Assembly (NCBI GenBank): GCA_018716505.1
Contig: DVJW01000087.1
Span: forward strand, 1-39,909
Direction of reading: 5' to 3'
From: Candidatus Faecaligallichristensenella faecipullorum
GTDB lineage: Bacteria > Bacillota > Clostridia > Christensenellales > Aristaeellaceae
Length of the DNA: 39,909 nucleotides
A program made the position numbers and the translations under genes. The notes beneath the pieces are model-generated. The model was not told the DNA's origin. It made no database searches and was given only the letters and a program-made list of their open reading frames with translations. Below, one piece after another: positions 1,205-24,506 of this stretch (positions within the stretch are counted from its first letter, which is position 1; each line of letters starts with the position of its first letter).

Positions 1205-3805
1205 ATGGCCATAACCCCCATGATGCAGCAATACCTGGCCATCAAGGAGCAGTATAAGGACGCCATACTGTTTTACAGGCTGGGCGATTTTTACGAGATG
1301 TTTTTCGACGACGCCGAGCTGGTCTCCCGGGAATTGGAGCTCACGCTGACCGGAAAGGACTGCGGGCTCAGCGAACGGGCGCCCATGTGCGGCGTGCCCT
1401 TTCATTCGGCCGATGTGTATGTGGCCCGGCTGATTGAAAAGGGCTATAAGGTGGCCATCTGCGAACAGATGGAGGATCCAGCCCTGGCCAAGGGCCTGGT
1501 GGAGCGCGCGGTCATCCGGGTGGTTACCCCGGGCACGGTCATTGAGAGCAATATGCTGGACGAGCACAAGTCCAGCTATATTCTTTCCCTGTACCTGGTC
1601 AAGGACAAAGCGGGCATCGCCTTTTCGGATGTGTCCACCGGTGAATTTTACGCCTATCAGTTTTCCGGCGCGCGAGGACGTCTGAGCGACGAGTTGAGCC
1701 GCATCGCGCCCCGGGAGATCCTCTGCAACGACCCGGCGCTGGCCATGACCTTGGCGCCCGCCATACCGGTGAAGGTGACGGCGTATGACGGGGAGGCCTT
1801 TGATTTTTCCCGGGCAGGGGATCAATTGCTTCAGCATTTTCAGGTCAAGGGCCTGGAAGAGCTGGGGCTGGGCAAGCAAAAGATGGCGGTTTCGGCTGCG
1901 GGCGCGCTGATGAGCTATCTGAACGAAACCCAGAAAAACGCCCTGATCCACATCCTGTCGGTCAGGCTGTATCAGGCTGAGCGCTATTTGACGCTGGACC
2001 GGGTGGCCGCGGCCAATCTGGAGCTCACCGAATCCCTGAGGGGCCGCAGCCGGCGCGGTTCGCTTTTGTGGACCTTGGACAACACCGTAACCAGCATGGG
2101 CAGCCGCATGCTCAGGCGTTGGATCGAACAGCCGCTGCAAATTCGCTCGGAAATCGAATCCCGCCTGGACGCGGTGGAGGCGCTCAAGGAAGACCTGATG
2201 ACCCTTCAGGAAATTCGGGAAGCGCTGGATCCGGTGTATGACATCGAGCGTTTGCTCAGCAAGATCGCCTACGACACCATCAACGCCCGGGATTGTCTGG
2301 CCCTGTTGCGCTCGCTCAAGGCGGTGCCCGCCCTGGTCAATCTGGTGATGGGGAAAAAAGAAGTCGGGCTGTTGGGCGAGATCCTGCGCCAGATGGATCC
2401 CCTCCGGGATGTGGAAACGCTGTTGGAAAGCGCCATTTCCCCGGACGCGCCCATTTCGGTGCGCGAGGGCGGGCTGATCCGGGAGGGATACAACGCCGAG
2501 TTGGACAAACTGCGCAGCGCGGCCACGGACGGCAAGACCTGGATCGCCGAATTGGAGCAAAAGGAGCGGGAGGCCACCGGCATTAAGAACCTGAAGGTGG
2601 GCTTTAACCGGGTATTCGGCTTTTATATCGAGGTCACCAAGTCCTTTTACGACCTGGTGCCCTATCGCTACACCCGGAAGCAGACCTTGGCCAACTGCGA
2701 ACGCTATATCACCGAGGAACTAAAGGAAATCGAAAAGACCGTGCTGGGCGCCGAGGAGAACGCCACCCGGTTGGAGTATGAGCTGTTCCTGGAAATTCGG
2801 GAGCAGCTCAAGGCTGCGCTCAGCCGGCTTCAGCGCACTTCTCAGGGCATCAAGACTTTGGACGCCCTGCAATCCCTGGCCCAGGTGGCCTCGGAGAACA
2901 ACTATGTAAGGCCCTCTCTCAATGAGGACGGGGTGTACGATATCCAGGGTGGACGGCATCCGGTGGTGGAAAAATCCCTGGGCAGCGGGGAATTTGTGCC
3001 CAATGACACCCTGCTCAATCAGGAAGGCCGCCTGATGATCATCACCGGCCCCAACATGGCGGGCAAGAGCACCTACATGCGCCAGGTGGCGCTGATTGTG
3101 CTCATGGCCCATATGGGCAGCTTTGTGCCCGCGGATTCGGCCAATATCTCCATTACCGACCGCATCTTCACCCGAATCGGAGCCTCGGACGACTTGTACT
3201 CCGGCCAGTCCACCTTTATGGTGGAGATGAGCGAGATGGCCACGATTCTCAAGTACGCCACCCCCAAGAGCCTGTTGATTCTGGATGAGGTGGGGCGGGG
3301 TACCAGCACCTTTGACGGGCTGTCCATCGCCTGGGCCGCGGTGGAGCATATCGCGGATTTGAAAAAGTGCGGAGCGCGCACCCTGTTCGCCACTCATTAT
3401 CACGAGCTTTCCGAGCTGGAAGGGCGGTTGGATGGGGTGGTAAACTACCGGATAACGGCCATGGAAAGGGGAAACGAGATTATCTTCCTGCGCAAGATCG
3501 TCAAGGGCGGCGAAGATCGCTCCTATGGCATCGCGGTGGCCGGGCTGGCCGGGCTGCCGGGTTCGCTACTGGCCCGGGCGCGCCAGATTATGGCCAGGTT
3601 GGAAGTGGCCGACGAGGGTAAAAACTCCATCGGTCAAAACATTCTGGACAGCAAAAAGAACGCGGGGGACCGCCAAGTGGCGCTTACCGATTTCGAGCCC
3701 ATGGAGCTGGTGGAGGAGATTCGCGCCATGGACGTGCTCAGCATGTCGCCCATCGACGCGCTGAACGCCCTGTTTCATTTGAGCGAAAAGGCCAGAAAAA
3801 TCTAA
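1205..3805 (+). CDS. mutS: DNA mismatch repair protein MutS
   Basis: N-terminal FYRLGDFYEMFFDDA; Walker A TGPNMAGKSTYMRQ; LLILDEVGRGTSTFDGLSIAWA; FATHYHEL; RBS ggaggaaaattc. Confidence 0.98.
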   Translation: MAITPMMQQYLAIKEQYKDAILFYRLGDFYEMFFDDAELVSRELELTLTGKDCGLSERAPMCGVPFHSADVYVARLIEKGYKVAICEQMEDPALAKGLVERAVIRVVTPGTVIESNMLDEHKSSYILSLYLVKDKAGIAFSDVSTGEFYAYQFSGARGRLSDELSRIAPREILCNDPALAMTLAPAIPVKVTAYDGEAFDFSRAGDQLLQHFQVKGLEELGLGKQKMAVSAAGALMSYLNETQKNALIHILSVRLYQAERYLTLDRVAAANLELTESLRGRSRRGSLLWTLDNTVTSMGSRMLRRWIEQPLQIRSEIESRLDAVEALKEDLMTLQEIREALDPVYDIERLLSKIAYDTINARDCLALLRSLKAVPALVNLVMGKKEVGLLGEILRQMDPLRDVETLLESAISPDAPISVREGGLIREGYNAELDKLRSAATDGKTWIAELEQKEREATGIKNLKVGFNRVFGFYIEVTKSFYDLVPYRYTRKQTLANCERYITEELKEIEKTVLGAEENATRLEYELFLEIREQLKAALSRLQRTSQGIKTLDALQSLAQVASENNYVRPSLNEDGVYDIQGGRHPVVEKSLGSGEFVPNDTLLNQEGRLMIITGPNMAGKSTYMRQVALIVLMAHMGSFVPADSANISITDRIFTRIGASDDLYSGQSTFMVEMSEMATILKYATPKSLLILDEVGRGTSTFDGLSIAWAAVEHIADLKKCGARTLFATHYHELSELEGRLDGVVNYRITAMERGNEIIFLRKIVKGGEDRSYGIAVAGLAGLPGSLLARARQIMARLEVADEGKNSIGQNILDSKKNAGDRQVALTDFEPMELVEEIRAMDVLSMSPIDALNALFHLSEKARKI

Positions 3806-3838
3806 AGCCGGCAACAGATATAAAAAGGAGGAAAGCCC

Positions 3839-5776
3839 ATGCCCATTCGGGTTCTGGACGCCGCGACGGTGGGACGCATCGCCGCGGGCGAGGTGGTGGA
3901 GCGCCCTTCATCGGTGGCCAAGGAGCTCATTGAAAACGCGCTGGACGCGGGCGCCACCTCCATTACCGTGGAGGTCAAGGACGGAGGGATCGGCTACCTC
4001 AGGGTAACGGACAACGGATGCGGAATCCCCGCGGATCAGGTAAAATTGGCCTTTCAAAATCATGCCACCTCAAAGATTCAGAGTGAGGAGGACTTAAACG
4101 ATATCCGCACTTTGGGCTTCCGGGGCGAGGCATTGCCCTCCATTGCCTCGGTGGCCAAGGTCACCCTGACCACCCGGGCCCGAAACGCGGAAAGCGGGGT
4201 CCGGCTCATTGTGGAGGGCGGCGAATTCAAGGATATAAAGGAACACGGCTGCCCGGAGGGCACCACCTTTATCGTGCGCGATCTCTTTTACAATACCCCG
4301 GTGCGGCGCGGTTTCCTGAAAAAACCGGCCGCCGAGTTCGGCGCGGTTTCGGATATGGTGTCGCGCATGATCCTGGGCAACCCCGGGGTTTCCATCCGCC
4401 TGATCAACAACGAGCGCACGGTGTATCACAGCTTTGGGGACGGCAATCTGCGCCACGCCGCGCTGGCCGTGTATGGCCGGGAGACTGCCAAGAAACTCAT
4501 CGAACTGGACGCGTCCTCCGGGGGGCTCAGGATTTCCGGGCTCATCGGGGTGGGCGAATGCGGCCGCTCCAATCGGGGACAGCAGTCGTTCTTTGTCAAC
4601 GGCCGGGTGGTGCGGTGCGCGCTGTTGACCCAGGCGTTGGAACAGGTATGCAAATCCCGGGTGACCATCGGGCAATTTCCCATGTGCGCGCTGCATGTAA
4701 CCTTGCCGCCCCATTCGGTGGACGTCAACGTGCATCCCAACAAGCTGGAAGTGCGCTTCCGCGACGAGATGAGCATGCGCCAGGGCGCCGAGGCGCTGAT
4801 ACAAAAGGCCTTTGAGGGCGAGCGGCTGTTGGACGTGGCGCGGGCCATGCAGGATGACACGGAGCCCATGGAAAAGGCCAGCGTGCAGCTGGCCGTGGCC
4901 CCCGAGGTGACCGAGATTTCCCGGGAAAACCCGGAAAAACCCGCGCCCGTGGTGTTGCCGGTGGAAAGCGTGCGCATGGATCCGCCGCCCGCGCCGGATT
5001 TTCCCCTCAGGGAAAGGCGCGCGCCCCAGGCCGGGCGTACAGACGCCGTTCAGCTGGCCTACGGCCGGGTTATGGAATCCGCCCGGGGCGGGCAGTCGCT
5101 CCGGGAGCCCGGAGCCCGCACGGTGCCCATGCGTGTGGCTGAGCCTGAGGCAGACAGCCGTCCCCTGGAATCGGTGGAGCCGGTGGAACCCCCAAAGGCG
5201 CCTGCGCCCAATCTGCGCATCATCGGCGTGGCGTTTCAAACCTATATTATTGTGGAATGCGGGGACAGGCTGTTTATGATCGACCAGCACGCGGCCCACG
5301 AGCGCATTCTCTATGAAAAATACCGCAAACAGCTGGAAAGCGGCACGGCCAGCCAACAGCTGCTGGCCCCCATGATCGTGGCCATGTCCCCCAGGGAGCG
5401 GGCGCTTTTGATGGACAACCGGGCGCTTTTAATGGAGGTGGGCTACGACGTGGAGCCCTTCGGCGAGCGGGATATCCAGGTGCGCAGCGTGCCCCATGTG
5501 CTGGGTCAAGCCGAGCTCAAGCCCCTGTTCGCAGGCCTGGTGGACCGGCTGGACCAGCTGAAGAGCGCCACCTTGGACCGGCGGCGGGATGAGGTCATCC
5601 AGGCCTCGTGCAAACACGCGGTCAAGGGCGGGGATGTGCTCAGCGATTTGGAAATTTCCGGATTGGTTGAGCAGATGCTTTCCACCGGTTCGCCGCCCAC
5701 CTGTCCCCATGGCCGCCCGGTGATGTGGGTCTTGAGACGGTATGATTTGGAAAAGCAATTTAAACGGATTCAGTAG
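3839..5776 (+). CDS. mutL: DNA mismatch repair protein MutL with endonuclease motif
   Basis: IAAGEVVERPSSVAKELIENALDAGA, GFRGEALPSIASV; C-terminal DQHAAHERILYEKY and PTCPHGRP; RBS aaaggagg. Confidence 0.98.
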   Translation: MPIRVLDAATVGRIAAGEVVERPSSVAKELIENALDAGATSITVEVKDGGIGYLRVTDNGCGIPADQVKLAFQNHATSKIQSEEDLNDIRTLGFRGEALPSIASVAKVTLTTRARNAESGVRLIVEGGEFKDIKEHGCPEGTTFIVRDLFYNTPVRRGFLKKPAAEFGAVSDMVSRMILGNPGVSIRLINNERTVYHSFGDGNLRHAALAVYGRETAKKLIELDASSGGLRISGLIGVGECGRSNRGQQSFFVNGRVVRCALLTQALEQVCKSRVTIGQFPMCALHVTLPPHSVDVNVHPNKLEVRFRDEMSMRQGAEALIQKAFEGERLLDVARAMQDDTEPMEKASVQLAVAPEVTEISRENPEKPAPVVLPVESVRMDPPPAPDFPLRERRAPQAGRTDAVQLAYGRVMESARGGQSLREPGARTVPMRVAEPEADSRPLESVEPVEPPKAPAPNLRIIGVAFQTYIIVECGDRLFMIDQHAAHERILYEKYRKQLESGTASQQLLAPMIVAMSPRERALLMDNRALLMEVGYDVEPFGERDIQVRSVPHVLGQAELKPLFAGLVDRLDQLKSATLDRRRDEVIQASCKHAVKGGDVLSDLEISGLVEQMLSTGSPPTCPHGRPVMWVLRRYDLEKQFKRIQ

Positions 5777-21101: not shown

Positions 21102-23738
21102 TTAGGCCTTTTTCAAGGTCTTGCGGCGGATGAACTTGACGCCTTCCACGATCGGGATCACCAGAACCGCCAGGCCCATGGCCACCGCGTATTCGGCCAA
21201 GGAGATGGTCTCGAACTCAAAGGCGCGGGCCAGGAAGGGGATATAGATGACGCCCGTGGTCAGGATAAGCGAAATCACCATGGCGCCCAACAGGAAGAAG
21301 TTGTGATGCTTCAAGGTAAAGATGGAGCCGTGCTGGGAGCGCATGTTGTAGGAGTGGAAGATTTCAGCCATGGACATGGTCAGGAAGGCCATGGTCATGC
21401 CGTCCGGACTGTTGGTGATCTCCCAAACTCCGGCCTCCATGAAGTGGCCGATGAAGTAGGCCGCCAAGGTGACCAGGGTCACCAACACGCCCTGATAGGC
21501 CACTTCAATCCCCAAGCCACCGGCAAAGATGCCATCCGTGGACGGACGGGGCGGGCGCTTCATCAGGTCGGCCTCACCCTTTTCCGTGCCCAGGGCCAAG
21601 GCGGGGAAGCAGTCGGTAATCAGGTTGATCCACAGAATGTGCACGGGCTTGAGAATGGTAAAGCCCAACAGGGTGGCGATGAAGATGGAGAGCACCTCGC
21701 TCAAATTGGAGGCCAGCAGGAATTGGATGGCCTTGCGGATGTTGTCGTAAATCCGCCGGCCTTCCTCCACTGCCGAGACGATGGTGGCAAAGTTGTCGTC
21801 GGCCAGCACCATGTCAGCCACATTCTTGGTCACGTCGGTGCCGGTGATGCCCATGCCCACGCCGATGTCCGCGCTCTTGATGGAGGGGGCATCGTTTACG
21901 CCGTCGCCGGTCATGGCGGTGATCTTGCCCTTCTTTTTCCAGGCGTTTACAATGCGCACCTTGTGCTCAGGCTGCACCCGGGCGTAAACCGAGTACTCTT
22001 CCACCTTGCGGTCGAAATCCTCATCCGAAATTTCATCCAACTGAGCGCCGGTGATGGCCTGGCTGGGGTCGGTGATGATGCCCAACTCCATGGCGATGGC
22101 CACCGCGGTGTCCTTATGGTCGCCGGTGATCATGATGGGCCGGATGCCCGCGGCGCGGCATTCCTTGATGGCGTCCACAACCTCCGGGCGCACCGGGTCG
22201 ATCATGCCGGTCAGGCCGATAAAGGTCAGATCCGCTTCCAGAGCCTCGGGGGAGGTATCCTGGGGCATTTGGTCATATTCGCGTTGAGCCGCGGCCAAAA
22301 CGCGCAGCGCCTTATCGGCCATGGCCTTGTTGGCGCTCAAAATTTCGCCACGCAAGGCTTCGGTCATTTCCACCACCTGGCCGCCCTTGAGCATGTGGGT
22401 GCAGCGCTTGAGCACCTCGTCCGGGGCGCCCTTGGTGTATTGGATAAATTTGCCTCCGGTCTTATGGACGGTGGACATCATCTTGCGCATGGAGTCAAAG
22501 GGCGCTTCGCCCACTCGGGGGAGTTGATTTTTCAAATCGCCCTTTTTGAGCCCCAGCTTGCAGGCGTACTGAACCAACGCGCATTCGGTGGGTTCACCCA
22601 CGGCCACGTCTTTTTCATCCAGTTCGGCGTCGCTGCAAAGCGCCATGGCCCGGGCCAGCAGCGCCTCGTCCTCGCCAAAATGATCCACAACGGTCATGCG
22701 GTTCTGGGTCAGGGTGCCGGTCTTATCCGAACAGATGATCTGGGCGCAGCCCAAGGTCTCCACGGCCGTGAGCTTGCGGATTACCGCATTGCGCCGGGAC
22801 ATATTGGTCACGCCCATGGAGAGCACGATGGTTACCACGGCGGCCAGGCCCTCGGGGATGGCTGCCACCGCCAGGCTGACCGCCACCATGAAGGTGTCCA
22901 GCACACTGGCGCCACTGAAGTTGCCACTCCTGATCAGGCTGAAAGCGAAGATGAAAATACAGATGCCAATGACCACAAAGCTCAGGATCTTGCTGAGCTG
23001 AGATAGTTTTTTCTGAAGCGGGGTCTGTTCGTCCCGGGCCTGGGTGAGCGCATCCGCGATCTTGCCCATTTCGGTCTGCATGCCGGTGCCGGCCACCACG
23101 GCCTGGCCGCGGCCATACACCACGGTGGAGCCCATGTATACCATGTTTTTCCGATCGCCCAGGGATACGTCGCCGTTTTCCCGGCCGGTAAGGGTATCGA
23201 TAAACTTGTTTACCGGAACCGATTCGCCGGTCAGCGCGGCCTCTTCCACCTTCATACTGGCGCTTTCAAAGATGCGCGCGTCTGCGGGCACCGCGTCGCC
23301 GGCTTCCAGCAAAATTACATCGCCCGGAACCAGCTCTTCGCTCTTCACATGGCAGAGCTTTCCATCGCGCATCACCTTGCTGGTGGCCGCGGTCATCTGC
23401 TGCAGCGCTTCAATGGCCTTTTCGGCCTTGCTCTCCTGATAGACGCCCAACACCGCGTTGATGACCACAACGATCAAAATAATAAACACGTCCGCGAAGG
23501 ACTCTCCGGCGTAGGCAGCCGTAATGCCCGAGACCAGCGCGGCGGCCAACAGGATAATGGTCATGGGGTCGGCCAATTGCTGCAAAAAGCGCCGGATCAG
23601 GCTGACCTTTTTGCCTTCGGCCAGTTTGTTGGGCCCATGCTCGGCCAAGCGTTTGGCCGCCTCCGCATTGCTCAACCCCTGCGGCGTGCTCTTCAGCGCC
23701 TCAAAAGTCTTCGTTAGGTCTTCCAAATAGAACTTCAT
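21102..23738 (-). CDS. Type IIA P-type cation-translocating ATPase (Ca2+ or Mn2+ transporter)
   Basis: ICSDKTGTLTQNRM, AAIPEGLAAVVTIVLSMG, MTGDGVNDAPSIKSADIGVGMG, NLITDCFPALALGTE; ATG 23738 preceded by gaaaggacggattcc. Confidence 0.96.
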   Translation of the reverse strand: MKFYLEDLTKTFEALKSTPQGLSNAEAAKRLAEHGPNKLAEGKKVSLIRRFLQQLADPMTIILLAAALVSGITAAYAGESFADVFIILIVVVINAVLGVYQESKAEKAIEALQQMTAATSKVMRDGKLCHVKSEELVPGDVILLEAGDAVPADARIFESASMKVEEAALTGESVPVNKFIDTLTGRENGDVSLGDRKNMVYMGSTVVYGRGQAVVAGTGMQTEMGKIADALTQARDEQTPLQKKLSQLSKILSFVVIGICIFIFAFSLIRSGNFSGASVLDTFMVAVSLAVAAIPEGLAAVVTIVLSMGVTNMSRRNAVIRKLTAVETLGCAQIICSDKTGTLTQNRMTVVDHFGEDEALLARAMALCSDAELDEKDVAVGEPTECALVQYACKLGLKKGDLKNQLPRVGEAPFDSMRKMMSTVHKTGGKFIQYTKGAPDEVLKRCTHMLKGGQVVEMTEALRGEILSANKAMADKALRVLAAAQREYDQMPQDTSPEALEADLTFIGLTGMIDPVRPEVVDAIKECRAAGIRPIMITGDHKDTAVAIAMELGIITDPSQAITGAQLDEISDEDFDRKVEEYSVYARVQPEHKVRIVNAWKKKGKITAMTGDGVNDAPSIKSADIGVGMGITGTDVTKNVADMVLADDNFATIVSAVEEGRRIYDNIRKAIQFLLASNLSEVLSIFIATLLGFTILKPVHILWINLITDCFPALALGTEKGEADLMKRPPRPSTDGIFAGGLGIEVAYQGVLVTLVTLAAYFIGHFMEAGVWEITNSPDGMTMAFLTMSMAEIFHSYNMRSQHGSIFTLKHHNFFLLGAMVISLILTTGVIYIPFLARAFEFETISLAEYAVAMGLAVLVIPIVEGVKFIRRKTLKKA

Positions 23739-23803: not shown

Positions 23804-23842
23804 AAAAAAACCCATGCGTGGCGCCTCTCCCACGCATGAGTC
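23804..23842 (-). terminator. Intrinsic terminator of the riboswitch expression platform
   Basis: Minus strand: actcatgcgtgg-gagaggcg-ccacgcatgggt followed by tttttt, located between promoter and ATPase start. Confidence 0.88.
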
Positions 23843-23930
23843 TTGTCATTTAAGCCGAACCAGGCCATATTCGGCCATGTGTGTTGGTTTTGACACGCGC
23901 TAAACGCACGCCAACTACTCCCTCAAGCTG
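23836..23930 (-). ncRNA. yybP-ykoY family (Mn2+-sensing) riboswitch aptamer
   Basis: Minus strand: AGCTTGAGGGAGTAG...GTGTCAAAACCAACAC...TGACAAGACTCATGC; recalls the conserved GGGGAGUAG 5' element and GACnAGACC 3' element, followed by a terminator and a P-type ATPase. Confidence 0.8.
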
Positions 23931-23935
23931 CTTTT

Positions 23936-23964
23936 ATTATAGGCCGCCAACCAAATACTGTCAA
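23936..23964 (-). promoter_or_regulatory. Consensus sigma-A promoter for the riboswitch / P-type ATPase transcript
   Basis: Minus strand TTGACA (23964-23959), 17 bp, TATAAT (23941-23936); predicted start falls at the riboswitch 5' end. Confidence 0.9.
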
Positions 23965-24003: not shown

Positions 24004-24474
24004 TCAAACCAGCCGGTACTCCGCATGCGCCCAACCGGGGTGCCGCTCCAAAAGCAGGACCAAGTTGCGCATAAGCTCAAGATCGGCCTGGCCGAAACGC
24101 CCAATTTCTGGGCTATCCATATCCAACACGCCCACCACCCGGCCATTCCGGTGGATCGGAAGCACCAATTCGGAGGCGCTTTGGGCGTCGCAGGCGATGT
24201 GTCCGGGATATGCGTGCACATCCCGAACCAACTGGGGCGCGTCCAGATGGGCGGCTGTTCCGCACACCCCTTTTCCCAGGGGAATGCGCACGCAGGCCGG
24301 CCGGCCCTGGAAGGGCCCCAACACCAGCTCTCCGCCGTCCATGAGATAAAATCCGGCCCAATTGAGCTTGGGCAGCTGTTCATGCAAAAAAGCGCTTAAA
24401 TTGGCCAATACCGGCAGGATTCGCGATTCGTCCTCCATGAGGCTCTGGGCCTGTTTGAGAAAGAGGTCATCCAT
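24004..24474 (-). CDS. GAF-domain free methionine-(R)-sulfoxide reductase (fRMsr)-like protein
   Basis: LNWAGFYLMDGGELVLGPFQGRPACVRIPLGKGVCGTAA, VHAYPGHIACDAQSASELVLPI, GVLDMDSPEIGRFGQAD; Cys in the three expected regions. ATG 24474 after aaaggagcaaaaagaac. Confidence 0.9.
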   Translation of the reverse strand: MDDLFLKQAQSLMEDESRILPVLANLSAFLHEQLPKLNWAGFYLMDGGELVLGPFQGRPACVRIPLGKGVCGTAAHLDAPQLVRDVHAYPGHIACDAQSASELVLPIHRNGRVVGVLDMDSPEIGRFGQADLELMRNLVLLLERHPGWAHAEYRLV

Positions 24475-24506
24475 GTTCTTTTTGCTCCTTTCCTTAAAGC
24501 ACAAAT

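Follow-up and report, generated by a model that had tools for sequence, protein, structure and literature searches.

A probable P4-less yybP-ykoY (Mn2+) riboswitch before a Ca2+-type P-type ATPase in Clostridia, and a sensitivity gap in Rfam model RF00080

Introduction

The leader of a P-type ATPase gene in Candidatus Faecaligallichristensenella faecipullorum, a member of the Clostridia, is very probably a riboswitch of the yybP-ykoY (Mn2+) family that belongs to a clostridial subtype without helix P4 and acts as a transcriptional ON switch. It lies on the minus strand of the 39,909-nucleotide stretch of contig DVJW01000087.1 that was analyzed as a whole, hereafter the window. The original prediction, made from the sequence, had proposed both a yybP-ykoY assignment and an antitermination layout; the former is supported by the recurrence of the leader at orthologous loci, by covariation, by a model built without the window, and by an mntP leader of the same genome, and the latter by a strand that tracks both of its competing partners across 64 leaders. 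ATPases with a Mn2+ riboswitch are already known, namely CD2503 of C. difficile and yoaB of Lactococcus lactis, and what is added here is a gap in the sensitivity of the Rfam model RF00080.

Promoter, Leader, and Terminator

The promoter, the aptamer motifs, and the terminator with its T tract that had been named ahead of the ATPase reading frame are all present on the minus strand. The sigma-70 promoter (23964–23936) matches the consensus at 12 of 12 positions, with the −35 element TTGACA at 23964–23959, a 17-nt spacer, and the −10 element TATAAT at 23941–23936; 0.7 promoter-like sites of any quality are expected in a 2-kb stretch. The RNA is predicted to start downstream of TATAAT at about 23929, from where its 5′ end reads GAGGGAGUAG (AGCTTGAGGGAGTAG; AGCUUGAGGGAGUAG), and the 3′ conserved element TGACAAGACTCATGC (UGACAAGACUCAUGC) begins at 23848. 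The intrinsic terminator occupies 23844–23807 and consists of a 15-bp stem and an 8-nt loop followed by a T tract that extends to 23804 (−24.1 kcal/mol, z = −6.9). The AAGACT element (23844–23839), which is the last conserved element of the aptamer, falls inside the 5′ arm of the terminator (23844–23830), just as the original prediction had it. The ATPase reading frame starts at 23738 and is preceded by the ribosome-binding site AGGAAAGGA. Immediately upstream of the leader, on the same strand, lies a gene for a GAF-domain protein (24004–24504; Pfam reports GAF only), which by our own reading resembles the free methionine-(R)-sulfoxide reductases.

Aptamer Architecture

The aptamer as delimited by covariance models spans 23832–23932 on the minus strand, scoring 75.9 bits with model R1, the alignment set of which took in the window, and 69.0 bits (E = 2e-14) with the leave-one-out model R2, built without it. 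The switch helix P1.1 is formed by the 5′ arm GCUUGAG (23922–23928) and the 3′ arm CUCAUGC (23834–23840), with a U-U mismatch at 23926/23836; among the aligned leaders 96% of its cells are paired and four of its five pairs show two-sided changes. Adjoining P1.1 is L1, which reads GGGAGUAG (23922–23915) and agrees with the family consensus GGGGAGUA(G/A), its GGGAGTA being invariant in all 37 aligned leaders. Helix P1.2 (23915–23912 with 23848–23845) is paired in 97% of cells, with two-sided changes in three of four pairs, and is followed by the P2 hairpin (23896–23910; alignment columns 23–27/37–41) and by the P3 hairpin (23854–23894), which bears the metal loop L3 and the 3′ CUGG, and the helix of which is 96% paired. 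A single mismatch, A23891/C23857, interrupts P3.1 of the window.

The L3 motif CAACA (23886–23882) is invariant, as is the UGG (23862–23860) that lies opposite to it, which reproduces the family arrangement of CA facing UGG; A23885 is the counterpart of A41 in L. lactis. A different placement of L3, at GUCAAAAC (23894–23887), was dropped when the alignment of leaders moved L3 to CCAACACACAUGG.

Conservation and Covariation

To gauge conservation, we used 80 orthologous loci chosen by similarity of the ATPase protein alone, with no selection for RNA. In most of them the motif GGGAGTA(A/G) occurs upstream, within 600 nt, and R1 finds a match at 65 of the 80, of which 36 had served to build the model. 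These amount to 66 matches, all upstream and on the coding strand, with one locus, L068, carrying two aptamers (3083–3183 and 3810–3915) ahead of a single ATPase gene. The 37 aligned leaders share the invariant blocks GGGAGUA, CAACA, UGG, and AGAC, and a structure made up of P1.1, P1.2, P2, and P3 has 91.9% of its cells paired. Two-sided changes affect 19 of 27 pairs, and the covariation score is 0.473, against 0.221 in shuffled and at most 0.126 in slid controls. These four helices are thus present and covary. The occurrence of the same leader at 65 of 80 orthologues together with strong covariation confirms that it is real and conserved beyond chance.

Link to Recognized Members and Their Target Genes

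The genome from which the window derives contains exactly two R1 matches, namely the window and a second leader on contig C115 (L001, 734–867, minus strand), on which RF00080 (33.6 bits) and R1 (65.8 bits) find the same nucleotides, and which precedes a gene for an MntP protein (Pfam PF02659). This mntP leader provides a bridge of homology between the window and recognized yybP-ykoY members, and matches of the two models coincide likewise in five related genomes (G045, G014, G024, G039, and G001) and at locus L044. The genes downstream of R1 matches in relatives mostly encode MntP, but also P-type ATPases, Na_Ca_ex exchangers, and one CitMHS/ArsB-like transporter, the families having been assigned mostly by BLAST to two seed proteins and, for two exchangers, by sequence likeness only; the RNA is in this way linked to genes of Mn2+ export and cation transport.

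Several of these loci deserve mention in their own right. At G004:C289 (L118) and G043:C36 (L123) one aptamer is followed by mntP and then by a P-type ATPase gene on the same strand, in an apparent operon. Four aptamers (L115, L133, L134, and L140) precede Na_Ca_ex-like exchangers, Pfam-confirmed for L115 and L140, which makes such exchangers candidates for Mn2+ export in Clostridia, and another (L141, G016:C35) precedes the CitMHS/ArsB-like transporter, an unusual target for a Mn2+ RNA. In one relative, a single strand of G036:C1 carries two aptamers (486157–486256 and 488706–488806) separated by 2.5 kb. The plus strand of L001 contains a TPP riboswitch at 1622–1719, which scores 64.8 bits and so exceeds its cut-off, some 750 nt away from the leader of mntP.

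Sensitivity of RF00080

The original prediction had named a search with RF00080 as its check and the want of a significant match as grounds for refutation. RF00080 gives no match in the window at its gathering score of 45 bits, which is a database criterion and not a biological one, and none at E ≤ 10 in a 251-nt stretch; the result is nevertheless no valid refutation, since the leader of the established E. coli alx Mn2+ riboswitch (GGGGAGUAAC...GUCAUUACG) likewise has no RF00080 match at E ≤ 0.001. Sister leaders reach only 16–33 bits with this model, including L033, a clear sister with all helices, at 16.4 bits, and the cut-off is attained in none of 60 related genomes, whereas R1 finds matches at E ≤ 0.001 in 31 of them. 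With alx also missed and the sister leaders far below the cut-off, the missing match carries little weight and is a gap in the model. The low sensitivity is probably due to the P1 arms, which are unpaired in the model as printed, and to the long variable helix at its end. The matches that other Rfam models (miRNA, bglG, TEG147) gave in the window at E ≤ 10 lie far below their cut-offs, mostly on the terminator hairpin, and were set aside as chance. R2, for its part, does not match the E. coli alx leader, which marks R1 and R2 as clade-specific models.

Helix P4 and the Subtype

In 35 of the 37 aligned leaders the linker from P3 to P1.2 measures 5 nt and takes the place of P4, which leaves a three-way junction, whereas published yybP-ykoY structures arrange P1–P4 around a four-way junction (PMC6754395, PMC9190785). 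The window accordingly has no counterpart of the four-way junction of the crystal structures. Elsewhere, in other genomes, the same gene has leaders that do fold with P4, L033 among them, and the mntP leader of L001, which RF00080 does match, has by eye the same short linker, so that P4 does not decide membership. The absence of P4 from the clade of the window is a minor variation, and we do not claim the P4-less form as new. A leader of Terrisporobacter (L099), a genus we regard as closely related to C. difficile, has this form too.

Relation to Known Systems

The yoaB gene of L. lactis is the textbook case of yybP-ykoY control of a P-type ATPase and a solved transcriptional ON switch. It shares with the window the L1 motif GGGAGUAG, an L3 with CA, the arrangement of P1.1, P1.2, P2, and P3, the AAGAC element, the competition between P1.1 and the terminator, and the P-type ATPase downstream; the window differs from yoaB and the RF00080 family in that it lacks P4, has a three-way junction closed by the 5-nt linker, and lies below RF00080 detection. 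The same arrangement is found within the same bacterial class in C. difficile, where a Mn2+ riboswitch is predicted before the cation P-type ATPase gene CD2503 (PMC11477304), a likeness drawn from description and not base by base. In S. pneumoniae, a member of the Bacilli and thus of another class than the window, a yybP-ykoY element is described as activating the Mn2+/Ca2+ P-type ATPase gene mgtA (Martin et al. 2019, as cited in PMC11434433 and PMC9331361), and the ATPase under its control is reported in the same sources to export Mn2+ and to have a tie to Ca2+; here, too, the likeness is one of description and not of sequence.

Probable Switch Mechanism

The strand CUCAUGC (23840–23834) can pair either with GCUUGAG at the 5′ end of the RNA, forming P1.1, or, as part of the terminator 5′ arm, with the terminator 3′ arm, and the two pairings are mutually exclusive. 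Across 64 leaders this shared strand varies (CUC, CUU, CCU) and both of its partners track the changes: 4.81 of five positions are paired with the P1.1 5′ arm, compared with 3.95 after swapping leaders with different strands, and 4.69 of five with the terminator, in the best-pairing register of each leader, compared with 3.89 after the swap, a control that may still contain an effect of relatedness. The minimum-free-energy (MFE) fold of the isolated aptamer contains P1.1, whereas that of the full leader contains the terminator, with GUUGG/CCAAC pairs, in place of the aptamer.

In L. lactis, Mn2+ held between L1 and L3 via N7 of A41 stabilizes P1.1 and prevents termination (PMC6754395, PMC11087558, PMC9190785), and it is by analogy with such homologues that we infer the metal response of the leader in the window. 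At high concentrations Mn2+ would bridge L1 and L3, dock the two legs of the RNA, and stabilize P1.1, which would block the terminator and allow the ATPase gene to be transcribed, whereas at low Mn2+ the terminator would form and transcription would stop. With less certainty, the ATPase would then clear the excess Mn2+, and probably Ca2+ together with it.

The Pump

The gene downstream (23738–21102, minus strand) encodes a type IIA cation-transporting P-type ATPase of 878 amino acids that is SERCA/LMCA1-like and contains the Pfam domains E1-E2_ATPase, Cation_ATPase_N, and Cation_ATPase_C; TIGR01116 scores 664.6 bits, under its cut-off of 703.4, and the best PDB match, over the full length, is LMCA1 (lmo0841), the Ca2+-ATPase of Listeria. 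Beyond these family domains it retains counterparts of all seven Ca2+ ligands of SERCA, namely E296, N678, E681, N705, T708, D709, and E792, which in SERCA numbering correspond to E309, N768, E771, N796, T799, D800, and E908; the match of E296 with E309 rests on the PEGL motif and one comparison, and the other six on another. At the positions of the SERCA-like Glu681 and Glu792 of the pump in the window, LMCA1 carries Ala and Arg. Of the 113 sequences examined, 96, among them the copy in the window, have the same seven ligand letters, and paralogues of about 50% identity have Gln at the last ligand site. Among ATPases of related genomes (L148, L149, L019–L032), the Mn2+ RNA is found more often with proteins that retain Glu at the counterpart of SERCA E908 (about 7 of 16) than with those that have Gln there (about 2 of 22), in a tally counted by hand in which kinship and contig breaks are ignored.

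Judged by its sequence, the pump is a candidate Ca2+ pump with a full site I, and its regulator and the companion genes point to Mn2+. Export of Mn2+ by the pump, which had originally been suggested as its possible main activity, is plausible from these features, and mixed Mn2+/Ca2+ export is our best guess, held at slightly better than an even chance.

Alternative Explanations

The ligands of the pump also bear on what the RNA senses. A divergent aptamer with the same fold could have Ca2+ as its main ligand, or respond to Ca2+ and Mn2+ jointly, and control a true Ca2+ pump, as the retention of all seven SERCA ligand counterparts and the description of the pneumococcal element, in the sources cited above, as Mn/Ca2+-sensing would allow; we consider this improbable, given that CAACA, the context of the adenosine that discriminates Mn2+, is invariant, and that both this genome and its relatives have mntP, of a Mn2+ exporter family, under the same RNA subtype.

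Two further readings are less likely still. That the leader is a mere terminator or attenuator that senses no ligand would suit the terminator, which exceeds every other element in stability and prevails in the whole-leader fold, but the covariation sits in aptamer helices for which a terminator has no need, and the P1.1 and terminator arms co-vary across leaders, so that we give this explanation very little credence. It is equally hard to sustain that the RNA belongs to some other, undescribed class resembling yybP-ykoY in short motifs only: the absence of P4 and of any Rfam match in the window would fit, yet two models built independently, RF00080 and R1, converge on the same loci, every conserved block of the family is found in its proper order and pairing context, and the bona fide alx aptamer escapes RF00080 at E ≤ 0.001 as well. 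The yybP-ykoY riboswitch therefore stands as the preferred reading.

Implications

At its cut-off, Rfam overlooks a set of clostridial Mn2+ riboswitches, and routine annotation with RF00080 leaves the present locus blank. A group of pumps labeled as Ca2+-ATPases is also marked as candidates for the export of Mn2+, or of Mn2+ and Ca2+. We would also like to put forward, tentatively and as a proposal rather less likely to hold than to fail, that a P4-less Mn2+ riboswitch docking as a three-way junction is widespread in Clostridia, mostly goes unseen at the Rfam cut-off, and controls pumps in which the two-site set of Ca2+ ligands is complete; if this were true, export of Mn2+ and of Ca2+ alike would be governed by Mn2+.
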